Positions 38,346-41,333 of a stretch of 64,000 nucleotides of DNA are shown here, one piece after another. Source of the DNA: Clostridia bacterium. Lineage in GTDB: Bacteria > Bacillota > Clostridia > Christensenellales > Aristaeellaceae. The DNA is taken from the NCBI GenBank assembly GCA_017519405.1, contig JAFWSH010000023.1:62001-126000 (forward strand), given 5' to 3'. The notes beneath the pieces were generated by a model. The model was given only the letters and a program-made list of their open reading frames with translations. It did no database searches and was not told the DNA's origin. Numbering within the stretch: the stretch's first letter is position 1; each line of letters starts with the position of its first letter. The translations under genes were made by a program, and so were the position numbers.

Positions 38346-38390
38346 CGCGGGCCCCCTCCCCGGAGTACAGGAAAAAAACAATCCCCCGTC

Positions 38391-38419
38391 TTGACAGAGA
38401 AAGGCAGCCTGCCTATAAT
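38391..38419 (+). promoter_or_regulatory. Consensus promoter of the metNIQ leader
   Basis: TTGACA (38391-38396), 17-nt spacer, TATAAT (38414-38419). Predicted start near 38426, 23 nt before the leader ORF. Confidence 0.85.
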
Positions 38420-38448
38420 GCTCCCATCCGAAGGGAAAGGAGGAGGTC

Positions 38449-38529
38449 ATGGTGAAGGGCGCGACGATGATCAGGAACTTTGTGTGCATCTGTCTGTGTT
38501 GCGTGTTTGCCGTGCCCTCCTTGGGATAA
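38449..38529 (+). CDS. Cysteine-rich leader peptide of metNIQ (26 aa)
   Basis: An ORF starting ATG at 38449 with AAAGGAGGAGG directly upstream encodes 26 residues, MVKGATMIRNFV then CICLCC then VFAVPSLG. Four of six consecutive codons (13-18) are Cys (TGC, TGT, TGT, TGC), far above chance. It sits between a consensus promoter and a terminator in front of metNIQ, which is the layout of a leader peptide for ribosome-stalling attenuation by cysteine supply. A small membrane peptide is the alternative reading. Confidence 0.75.
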   Translation: MVKGATMIRNFVCICLCCVFAVPSLG

Positions 38530-38587
38530 GGCCGCAGAAAGCAGACAGCGGCCGGAGACAGGCGGGGCAGGGCGCTCCGCCTGTTTT
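38530..38587 (+). promoter_or_regulatory. Leader hairpins 1 and 2 of the metNIQ attenuator
   Basis: Hairpin 1 GGCCGC/GCGGCC (38530-38553) begins at the last base of the leader stop codon region; hairpin 2 ACAGGCGG/CCGCCTGT (38558-38584) is followed by TTT. A ribosome finishing the leader would mask hairpin 1, one stalled at the Cys codons would not. Confidence 0.6.
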
Positions 38588-38590
38588 CAT

Positions 38591-38640
38591 ACGCGGACAC
38601 ACCGCGTCGGAAGGCAGGCAGCCGATCCGGCGCGGTTTTT
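38591..38640 (+). terminator. metNIQ leader terminator with alternative antiterminator pairing
   Basis: Terminator stem CCGCGTCGG (38602-38610) with CCGGCGCGG (38627-38635) followed by TTTTT, just before the metN ribosome site. The 5' arm can instead pair as ACGCGG/CCGCGT with 38591-38596, which would prevent the terminator. Confidence 0.7.
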
Positions 38641-38664
38641 CATTGCAGGGAGGAAGAAATTCGG

Positions 38665-39693
38665 ATGATTCACGTAGAACACGCAGTGAAAACCTTCGCC
38701 GGGGGCCAGCAGGCGGTTCACGCCCTGCGGGACGTCTCCCTCCACGTGGCGCAGGGGGACATCTACGGCATCGTGGGCTTCTCCGGGGCGGGGAAATCCA
38801 CCCTGCTGCGCCTGGTGAACGGCCTGGAGAAGCCGGACAGCGGCACCGTCACCGTGGCCGGGCAGGAGCTGGGGAAGCTGAACAAGCGGGAGCTGCTGAA
38901 GCTGCGGCGGAAGATCGGCATGGTGTTCCAGCAGTTCAACCTCCTGGAGGGCAAGACGGTCTTCCACAACGTGGCCCTGCCCCTGGAGCTGGCCGGCATG
39001 AAGAAGGAGGAGATCCGCAAGCGGGTGCGGGAGGTGCTGGCCTTTGTGGAGCTGGAGGAGAAGCAGGACGCTTACGTGAGCCAGCTCTCCGGCGGCCAGA
39101 AGCAGCGGGTGGGCATCGCCCGGGCCCTGGCCACCTCCCCGGACATCCTCCTGTGTGACGAGGCCACCTCCGCCCTGGACCCCCAGACCACCGAGGCCAT
39201 CCTCCGCCTCCTGCAGAAGGTGAACCGGGAGATGGGCGTCACCATCCTGCTCATCACCCACCAGATGCAGGTGATCCAGATGATCTGCAACAAGGTGGCG
39301 GTGATGGAGGAGGGGAAGGTGGTGGAGGAGGGCAGCGTGCTGGAGGTCTTCGGCACCCCCCGGGCGGAGGTCACCCGGCGCTTTGTCCGCACGGTGATCA
39401 ACGACCGCATCCCGGAGAAGTTCCTGGCCGTGGTCCGGGCGGAGCAGCGCAACCAGCAGGTGGAGCTGCTCAAGTTCATCGGGGACCAGGTGCAGGAGCC
39501 CCTCATCGCCCAGCTCTGCCGCACGGAGGGGCTGGAGGTCAACATCCTGGGCGCCACCATCCAGGAGATGCAGGGCAGCGTCATGAGCGTCTTCATCCTC
39601 CAGCTCATCGGGGAGGAGGCGCTGGTGGCGGCGGCGGAAAAGAAAATCGACGCGGCGGGAGCGCTGCGGGAAAGGCTGGTGTGGGACGCATGA
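38665..39693 (+). CDS. metN: Methionine-type ABC transporter ATP-binding protein
   Basis: 342 residues. Walker A GFSGAGKSTLLRLVNGLE, signature LSGGQKQRVGIARALA, Walker B LLCDEATSALDPQTT and H-loop LLITHQM are present, plus the C-terminal ACT-like NIL domain (about 265-342) that senses methionine in MetN proteins. With MetI and MetQ it imports methionine or related amino acids. The gene follows the cysteine-rich leader and overlaps metI by ATGA. Confidence 0.93.
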   Translation: MIHVEHAVKTFAGGQQAVHALRDVSLHVAQGDIYGIVGFSGAGKSTLLRLVNGLEKPDSGTVTVAGQELGKLNKRELLKLRRKIGMVFQQFNLLEGKTVFHNVALPLELAGMKKEEIRKRVREVLAFVELEEKQDAYVSQLSGGQKQRVGIARALATSPDILLCDEATSALDPQTTEAILRLLQKVNREMGVTILLITHQMQVIQMICNKVAVMEEGKVVEEGSVLEVFGTPRAEVTRRFVRTVINDRIPEKFLAVVRAEQRNQQVELLKFIGDQVQEPLIAQLCRTEGLEVNILGATIQEMQGSVMSVFILQLIGEEALVAAAEKKIDAAGALRERLVWDA

Positions 39694-40412
39694 GTACACC
39701 GGGCAATATCACGCCGGCGCAGGCGGGCTTCGACTTCGCCGCCTGGTTCAAGGACTTCTTCGGCATCAAGTTTGACAAGCTCCTGGGCTCCCTGGGGGAC
39801 ACGCTGTACATGCTGGGCTGGGGGCTGATCATCGGCGCGGCGGTGGGCTTCCTGCTGGCCCTGGTGCTGGTGATGTGCCGCCGGGGCGGCCTGTGGCAGA
39901 ACCGGGTGGCCTACGGCATCGTGAACGTGTATGTGAACATCGTGCGCTCCATGCCCTTCATCATCACCCTGGTCTTCGTCTTTCCCCTGACCAAGGTCAT
40001 TGTGGGCAAGACCTACGGCTCCACCGCCATGCTGGTGCCCCTGGTGATCTACATCAGCCCCTACCTGGCCCGGCTGATGGAGAACTCCCTGCTGGAGGTC
40101 TCCCCGGGGATCATCGAGGCGGCCCAGGCCATGGGCGCCACCACATGGCAGATCATCGCCCGCTTCATGCTGCCGGAGGCCCTCTCCTCCATGGTCCTGG
40201 CCCTGACCACCGGCACCGTGGGCCTCCTGGGCGCCACCGCCATGGCCGGCTATGTGGGCGGCGGCGGTGTGGGCGACCTGGCCCTCACCTACGGCTACCA
40301 GCGCTATAACCTCCCCCTGCTGATCCTCACCATCGTGATCCTGGTGGTCTTCGTCCAGCTGCTGCAGCTGCTGGGCAACCGGGTCAGCGCCCGGCTGCGG
40401 TCCCACCGGTAA
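39690..40412 (+). CDS. metI: Methionine-type ABC transporter permease
   Basis: 240 residues, five to six transmembrane helices. Landmarks are LGDTLYMLGWGLIIGAAVGF, IVRSMPFIITLVF and the EAA coupling loop IEAAQAMGATTWQIIARFMLPEA, as in MetI. Start ATG 39690 lies within the metN stop (ATGA), indicating coupled translation. The N-terminal 25 residues before the first helix are somewhat longer than usual. Confidence 0.93.
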   Translation: MSTPGNITPAQAGFDFAAWFKDFFGIKFDKLLGSLGDTLYMLGWGLIIGAAVGFLLALVLVMCRRGGLWQNRVAYGIVNVYVNIVRSMPFIITLVFVFPLTKVIVGKTYGSTAMLVPLVIYISPYLARLMENSLLEVSPGIIEAAQAMGATTWQIIARFMLPEALSSMVLALTTGTVGLLGATAMAGYVGGGGVGDLALTYGYQRYNLPLLILTIVILVVFVQLLQLLGNRVSARLRSHR

Positions 40413-40511: not shown

Positions 40512-41333
40512 ATGATGAAGAAACTGCTTGCCCTGATCCTGGCCCTCGCCCTGGTGCTCTCCGCGGTTTCCATGGCCGCGGCGGAGGAGAAAACCCTCAT
40601 CCGCTACTCCAAGTCCCAGGGCCCCTACACCGAGCTTTTTGAGGCCGGCATCATCCCCATCCTGGAGGCCCAGGGCTACACCTTCGAGGTGGTGGAGGCC
40701 AGCGACCTGCTGGTGGCGGACAAGATGCTGGAGGACGGCGATGTGGACGTGAACGTGGAGCAGCACACCGCCTACATCGAGACCTTCTTCAACGCCAACA
40801 ACGACGGCCACCTGGTGGGCATCAGCCCCATCCCCACCGTCCCCGCCGGCCTCTTCTCCGCCAACCACGCCTCCCTGGACGAGGTGGCCGACGGCATGAC
40901 CATCGCCGTGGTGAACGACGCCTCCAACATGGCCCGGTGCCTGCTGATCCTCCAGAAGATCGGCTGGGTGAAGTTTGACCCGGACGTGGACGTCACCAAG
41001 GTCACCCCCGACGACATCATCGAGAACCCCTACAACCTGGAGATCATCCCCATGCTGAACGTGAACATCCCCACCAGCCTGGCGGACTATGACTTCGGCC
41101 TCATCACCGGCTCCATCGTGTGGAACGCCCGGGAGATCGTGGACCCGTCCAGCGCCCTGGCCCAGGAGGACATCCTGCCCCACCTGGTGCTGCAGGTGAC
41201 CGTGAAGGAGCAGGACAAGGACACCGAATGGGCCCAGGCCATCGTGGCGGCCTACCACTCCGAGGAATTCAAGGCCTACATGGACGCCAACAACGACGGC
41301 ATGTGGTGGATCCCGGAGGAGCTCTTCCAGTAA
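40512..41333 (+). CDS. metQ: MetQ/NlpA-family substrate-binding protein, without lipobox
   Basis: 273 residues. The NlpA-family pattern is clear: YSKSQGPYTELFEAGIIPILEAQGYTFEVVEASD, DVDVNVEQHTAYIETF and TIAVVNDASNMARCLLILQKIGW. The signal peptide (1-24) ends in AMAAAEE-like small residues with no cysteine, so it is not a lipoprotein as MetQ normally is. It binds methionine or a related amino acid for MetNI. A terminator follows. Confidence 0.9.
   Translation: MMKKLLALILALALVLSAVSMAAAEEKTLIRYSKSQGPYTELFEAGIIPILEAQGYTFEVVEASDLLVADKMLEDGDVDVNVEQHTAYIETFFNANNDGHLVGISPIPTVPAGLFSANHASLDEVADGMTIAVVNDASNMARCLLILQKIGWVKFDPDVDVTKVTPDDIIENPYNLEIIPMLNVNIPTSLADYDFGLITGSIVWNAREIVDPSSALAQEDILPHLVLQVTVKEQDKDTEWAQAIVAAYHSEEFKAYMDANNDGMWWIPEELFQ

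Follow-up and report, generated by a model that had tools for sequence, protein, structure and literature searches.

How is the metNIQ operon of this clostridial DNA controlled, and what does its transporter carry? In Firmicutes, methionine transporters are usually preceded by a SAM riboswitch or a Met T-box. Attenuation by leader peptides is chiefly known from Proteobacteria and Actinobacteria; isolated examples come from Firmicutes. The DNA analysed here, a stretch of 64 kb that we call the window, carries the hallmarks of MetNIQ in one operon, namely MetN with a NIL domain, MetI and an NlpA-family MetQ. An initial annotation of the sequence had reported neither of the usual RNA elements in front of it and had suggested that ribosomes stalling at cysteine codons of a short leader ORF control the transporter.

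We first consider the RNA elements, which would likewise control metNIQ at the RNA level. No gathering-level match to Rfam was found in the 64-kb window, so that neither a SAM riboswitch nor a Met T-box is seen at the locus, as had been claimed. To extend this to relatives, we sought MetN homologs in 150 genomes and took 100 of the best-scoring among the matches listed. On metN's strand, no Rfam match precedes metN in 95 of these 100 loci (L053, L081, L100, L114 and L143 lay outside the scan), nor was one found before metN in five further loci of the window's clade. SAM riboswitches as such occur in 103 of the 150 genomes searched, mostly one in each; the search found none in the genome to which the window belongs (80% complete). 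We also considered whether SAM riboswitches or T-boxes stand in at those metN loci that lack a leader, and rejected this, as 60 such loci contain none. Two other RNAs were observed near metN: a Fusobacteriales-1 RNA about 2 kb downstream of the gene and on its strand (L122, 504-623, minus), and a ZTP riboswitch about 330 bases before it on the other strand (L098, 485-568, minus).

The leader region was read at positions 38380-38665 of the window, and its features are collected in Table 1. The promoter, the 26-codon ORF, its ribosome site and its Cys run are all present as initially annotated. The leader starts 29 bases downstream of the -10 box and has a strong ribosome site with the Shine-Dalgarno (SD) sequence AAAGGAGGAGG at 38436-38446. 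No Met codon lies inside the Cys cluster. Within 1.7 kb we found two promoter-like sites, compared to 0.1 on average in shuffles. The second site, TTGACG-17-TATCAT at 38345-38317 on the minus strand, points in the opposite direction and lies before a divergent minus-strand ORF. A leader of this kind is rarely produced by chance: when the 350 nt in front of metN were dinucleotide-shuffled 5000 times, a short SD-led ORF carrying four or more Cys within six codons arose once, and no shuffle combined such a cluster with an SD match of at least 6. Furthermore, among the SD-led ORFs (match of at least 5) of 12-45 codons on both strands of the 64-kb window, no other one reaches even three Cys in six.

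Table 1. Features of the metNIQ locus, in positions of the window
Feature	Position	Strand	Remarks
Sigma-70 type promoter TTGACA-17-TATAAT	38391..38419	+	12/12 consensus positions
Segment 1: leader ribosome site and start codon	38436..38452	+	pairs with segment 2
Leader ORF, 26 codons, MVKGATMIRNFVCICLCCVFAVPSLG	38449..38529	+	SD-led
Control codons Cys 13, 15, 17, 18	38485..38502	+	four Cys in six codons
Segment 2: last leader codons	38509..38523	+	partners: segment 1 or segment 3
Accessory hairpin GGCCGC/GCGGCC	38530..38553	+	directly past leader stop
Segment 3: 5' strand and loop of T1	38559..38573	+	antiterminator with segment 2
T1, terminator-like hairpin	38559-38583; with TTTT 38559..38587	+	-19.4 kcal/mol
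T2, second terminator-like hairpin	38601-38636; with TTTT 38601..38640	+	
metN-type ATPase with NIL domain	38665..39693	+	
metI-type permease	39690..40412	+	
metQ-type binding protein	40512..41333	+	L, E, T, L at Y81, F98, N213, N238 positions

Folding bore out the hairpins, the terminator and the alternative antiterminator pairing that had been described, and it added a second candidate terminator (T1 and T2). The leader RNA (38426-38640) folds at -109.4 kcal/mol, which corresponds to a z of -5.6 against 200 shuffles. In a long hairpin, the ribosome site of the leader is paired with the 3' end of the leader itself. The antiterminator duplex between 38509-38523 and 38559-38573 reaches -23.4 kcal/mol, compared to -19.4 for T1. 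The T tracts of the two terminators are short, with four to five T.

We then asked whether the leader is kept among relatives. Searched as DNA, the complete upstream region had matches in three of the 150 genomes, own genome included, and we turned to MetN and MetQ homologs instead; such matches are few because layout and pairing are conserved more than the letters. An ORF was counted as a leader if it was SD-led, 12-45 codons long, contained four or more Met or Cys codons within a stretch of nine, and ended at least 30 bases before metN. This rule retrieved leaders in 36 of the 100 metN upstream regions (window included; one locus with a short upstream region was dropped), whereas the controls gave 25 of 4000 dinucleotide shuffles, none of 100 reverse complements and 11 of 795 downstream stretches. 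Leaders with Cys runs as in the window precede the genes of the four closest MetN proteins (77-83% identity). A search of named genomes with MetQ added 12 loci from Clostridia or Clostridiales, some of them from roe deer rumen, and a MetQ search of 308 genomes of the family yielded 22 with a close MetQ, including the window's own genome.

Of the 14 species whose MetQ has at least 82% identity, the window's among them, 13 have retained three or more Cys within six codons, and the terminator hairpin is present in all 14 species with a close MetQ. Examples of the relatives' Cys-run leaders are MTVRAMMCCCSMRVFAALSL, MDRRMLCCCCGGVFAAPFL and MTRHFPCCCPMCALTVLSLQE. The initial annotation had named a conserved ORF length without conserved Cys codons as the pattern that would speak against it. 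We find the opposite, as leader length in the close species ranges from 19 to 28 codons, and the flanks vary too, while the Cys run persists. In the exception, G161 (L150, L178), the Cys codons are lost and the promoter and terminator kept. A TTGA-type -35 box with a 17-nt spacer lies before 18 of the 19 leaders examined (exception L183), with scores of 10-12 of 12. Further away, Cys runs are present in G320 (MetQ 67%). Of the seven genomes of genus g27 (MetQ 63-66%), three have a leader in which the Cys codons are spread out, two (L193, L194) have lost leader and terminator, and in two no metN was found beside metQ. In L193 and L194 a promoter-like site remains before metN, as if the operon had become unregulated. 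As a separate observation, the attenuated metNIQ of L149 is directly preceded by a gene for an M20-type peptidase (1756-2943, Pfam), and similar genes were seen by eye in L151, L152 and L155.

Over 13 leaders, the Cys codons comprise 39 TGT and 8 TGC. This synonymous variation shows that the amino acid is what is kept. It bears on the view that the region is an undescribed metabolite-binding RNA, that is, a riboswitch in which the ORF occurs by chance. The strong structure (the z given above) would fit such an RNA; yet the Cys codons are kept with synonymous changes, no conserved unpaired core is visible by eye in the relatives' upstream regions, and Rfam has no match in the window. We thus regard a riboswitch as highly improbable.

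If the leader works by attenuation, segment 2 should have two partners, and both pairings should be kept across species. We compared the duplex energy of each segment with its own partner to that with the partners of other species, using 20000 permutations. For the 1:2 duplex, the own partners are favoured in 13 clade members (-20.8 vs -18.0; 1/20000 permutations as low), in 17 members of the wider clade (-20.7 vs -16.6; 0/20000) and in 31 other leaders (-15.4 vs -13.4; 0/20000). The 2:3 duplex gives -19.9 vs -18.2 in the 13 members (148/20000) and, with a wider segment 2, -20.1 vs -17.6 in the 17 members (1/20000) and -15.6 vs -14.4 in the 31 others (236/20000); when restricted to the four most distant members, the 2:3 test shows no effect (3223/20000). 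Because the species are related, these counts indicate covariation beyond shared sequence and not exact probabilities. A terminator hairpin of -12 kcal/mol or lower lies between leader and metN in 47 of 48 cases, compared to 37 of 480 shuffles. An alignment of related upstream regions had been proposed as a check, and in the comparison made here both the Cys codons and the stems are conserved; judged from the sequences, the predicted 1:2 and 2:3 pairings are mutually exclusive.

The same data bear on the possibility that the ORF encodes a working small Cys-rich protein, membrane-bound or metal-binding, with hairpins that merely end its transcript. The peptide FVCICLCCVFAVPSLG is hydrophobic and rich in Cys, and its ORF is SD-led, as expected for such a protein. 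Against this, the peptide varies among relatives outside the Cys run, its tail tracks the RNA pairing to its own ribosome site and to the terminator, and the same layout is found with Met runs before sister operons. A functional small protein is therefore very unlikely.

We next examined how the position of a ribosome on the leader would affect the competing helices. With an assumed mock footprint of about 30 nt and codon 17 in the A site, the footprint ends just before segment 2, which in the window begins at codon 21. Segment 2 starts 2-6 codons past the last Cys in 12 of 13 leaders (three in the window; in L186 the two overlap). When the leader start was masked and the RNA folded to the end of segment 3, the window had 13.5 2:3 pairs with the ribosome stalled at Cys and 0.0 with the ribosome at the stop codon; the means over 17 leaders were 10.9 and 1.1. 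The three g27 leaders did not switch under the same masking (0 and 0 pairs in two, equal numbers in the third), with stall sites that were set by rule and may be wrong.

Equilibrium folding also sets limits on the model. With a stalled footprint and the leader start left free, no 2:3 pairing appears in the window at three stall positions, and 1:2 or other pairs re-form. Thus, something such as a following ribosome has to prevent the leader start from pairing again. Once T1 is complete, still with the start masked, T1 has 9.2 pairs and 2:3 has 1.4 at equilibrium in the window, and 2:3 outnumbers T1 pairs in only 8 of 17 leaders. As T1 prevails at equilibrium in the window, the choice would have to be kinetic and fall before the polymerase has transcribed the 3' strand of T1. 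When the window's leader is folded without any ribosome, both 1:2 and T1 are present, and 1:2 has more than 10 pairs in 14 of 17 leaders (not in L045, L180 and L187). This predicts an off state without translation.

We propose the following mechanism. When cysteine is plentiful, the ribosome would reach the stop codon and cover segment 2, so that the terminator forms and the operon is off. When Cys-tRNA is short, the ribosome would stall at codons 13-18 and leave segment 2 free just downstream of its footprint. Provided that segment 1 is held off segment 2, which a following ribosome could do, segment 2 would pair with segment 3 while the terminator is still incomplete, and transcription would continue into metNIQ. 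Without translation, 1:2 would form and the terminator would stay. This mechanism is well supported by the comparison of species and less so by equilibrium folding. The initial proposal of control by stalling at Cys codons is supported too, by sequence comparison only. We conclude with considerable confidence that the leader represents a trp-type ribosome-mediated transcription attenuator that senses Cys-tRNA, placed before a MetNIQ offshoot whose cargo is likely not methionine.

The classical attenuators are those of the trp, his, leu, thr and phe operons of enterobacteria. The window's leader shares with them an ORF with control codons, competing helices and an intrinsic terminator; it differs in its Cys codons, its occurrence in Clostridia, its transporter operon and in a segment 1 that is the leader's own ribosome site. 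Cys runs in short upstream ORFs (uORFs) are known from cysteine genes of Actinobacteria including mycobacteria (Seliverstov 2005, PMC1262725; PMC13236596 citing Canestrari 2020). In the accessible sections of these papers, the uORFs are leaderless, their control is described as translational and no conserved terminator was found (PMC1262725; PMC13236596). The leader in the window lies outside this class, since it is SD-led, has a terminator and an antiterminator and precedes the transporter operon metNIQ. In Rhodobacterales, uORFC-8-2 before cysS combines tandem Cys codons with an intrinsic terminator (PMC8632094, available portion); unlike our case, it concerns a Cys-tRNA synthetase gene, another phylum and another structure. 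Leader-peptide control in Firmicutes has been described for the His leader of bacilli (PMC2965389, in the part accessible to us), which differs in that it involves histidine and aminoacyl-tRNA synthetase genes. Among the matches listed in open-access literature, we found no Cys-run leader before a metNIQ of Clostridia, in agreement with the initial annotation, and no description of Met-run leaders. The leader looks like a new form of ribosome-mediated attenuation, on what appears to be a new substrate branch of MetNIQ.

The Cys leader has relatives of a different composition. Sister metNIQ operons have Met-rich leaders of the same build; 30 of the 31 other leaders contain at least three Met in nine codons, and eight of these 30 also have three or more Cys within six. 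In the window's own clade, several leaders have Met codons next to the Cys run (MMCCC). Taken together, these leaders suggest that the device belongs to a wider sulfur-amino-acid set. In a group of MetN proteins without a leader before metN, a Met-rich leader was observed before the preceding gene in 7 of 12 loci (L272, L273, L276, L277, L279-L281). The preceding gene is of NlpA type in L272, the one tested; there (110-1021, minus) the NlpA match falls into two stretches, with the first part of the protein corresponding to profile positions 99-236, so that the protein may be circularly permuted. In another group, comprising 21 MetN rows, no leader was seen.

To learn what the transporter carries, we turned to MetQ. 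The operon belongs to the same three-gene family as the L-methionine importers, with a NIL domain and NlpA/MetQ, but four of the seven methionine contacts of its MetQ are replaced. In the MetQ of N. meningitidis, as far as the available text describes it, R156, N213 and N238 hold the amino and carboxyl groups of methionine, Y81, F98, H100 and Y103 contact the thioether, and N238A weakens L-Met binding more than 10^5-fold (PMC6739813); N229A of E. coli MetQ behaves similarly, according to the portion available (PMC12357092). We collected 106 MetQ-like proteins, of which 77 remained after removing 3 that were too short and 26 without filled Y81/F98 columns. All 22 proteins of the window's clade have L, E, T and L in place of Y81, F98, N213 and N238, while H100, Y103 and R156 are kept. 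In the 55 other MetQs, F98 and N213 are kept in all 55, N238 in 52, and position 81 is Y in 49 and F in 4.

On the MetN tree (a quick tree with long branches), the window's clade forms one branch of 20 rows with support 100 and a long stem. The MetQ pocket partitions cleanly on this tree, unlike the leader labels (Cys, Met, mixed or none), which were tried and gave no clean partition (22 changes vs a shuffled mean of 42.4). As the pocket is altered in the same clade that has the Cys leaders, pocket and leader changed in the same group. Scores against the NCBIfam methionine models are low in the window (MetN 372.6 of 499.7, MetQ 91.3 of 374, MetI 163.9 of 212). We dropped these scores as a sign of a changed cargo, since the MetQs of two sisters with Met leaders also fall below the cut-off (123.6 and 199.0 of 374), which makes low scores uninformative on this point.

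The rebuilt pocket suggests that methionine is not the cargo and that the importer takes up cystine, cysteine or some other compound that yields cysteine; we lean slightly towards this reading. The leader is what points to cysteine itself; cystathionine, lanthionine and Cys peptides may also be carried. It is also conceivable, though unlikely, that the leader senses the charging of Met and Cys tRNAs generally, that the transporter still imports methionine, and that the Cys run reflects drift within a family of Met/Cys leaders. The MMCCC runs in many leaders of the clade and the mixture of both codons in sister leaders agree with such drift, but the window's cluster contains no Met, the Cys run is retained in nearly all close species, and the window's MetQ lacks N238, the residue whose replacement by Ala is so costly for L-Met affinity in N. 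meningitidis (PMC6739813, accessible part).

Leaders rich in Met or Cys also precede other genes of sulfur metabolism. An SDF-family symporter has a Cys-rich leader before three of three copies (70-100% identity), and five remote homologs have none. In NCBIfam, this symporter has only sub-threshold matches to DctA and GltP; we presume that it resembles the cystine symporters. Met/Cys-rich leaders before MetY and the SDF-family symporter were seen in L202 (G001), L043 (G010) and L263/L264 (G001, G005). In G001, metY is followed by the symporter gene; metY has its own Met/Cys leader, and a second, Cys-rich leader lies between the genes. A further type of leader was observed about 115-170 bases before metY, which encodes O-acetylhomoserine sulfhydrylase. 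These leaders have few Met or Cys codons and carry near their end the motif SRNRM, SRGRM or [FS]R.GRM with CGA-ATG codons, which might act as a nascent-chain sensor. They occur in L233, L234, L236-L239, L244, L246 and L249-L252, where L234 is the window's own genome.

Lastly, we consider what these leaders mean for the family as a whole. It is an evenly balanced proposition that attenuators with Met or Cys runs replace SAM riboswitches and T-boxes on the operons for sulfur amino-acid transport and MetY, and that the codon run tells the cargo. Met runs would then mark true methionine MetNIQ. Cys runs would mark an offshoot, so far unnamed, whose pocket is rebuilt and whose cargo is cyst(e)ine or a compound that yields cysteine. 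Attenuation is apparently a common control of sulfur amino-acid importers in this group of uncultured rumen and gut Clostridia. The amino acid that is sensed can be read directly from the control codons, and this offers a hint at the transporter's cargo. Here, this hint agrees with the independent change in the pocket, and it predicts a cysteine-type importer within a family annotated as methionine transporters.
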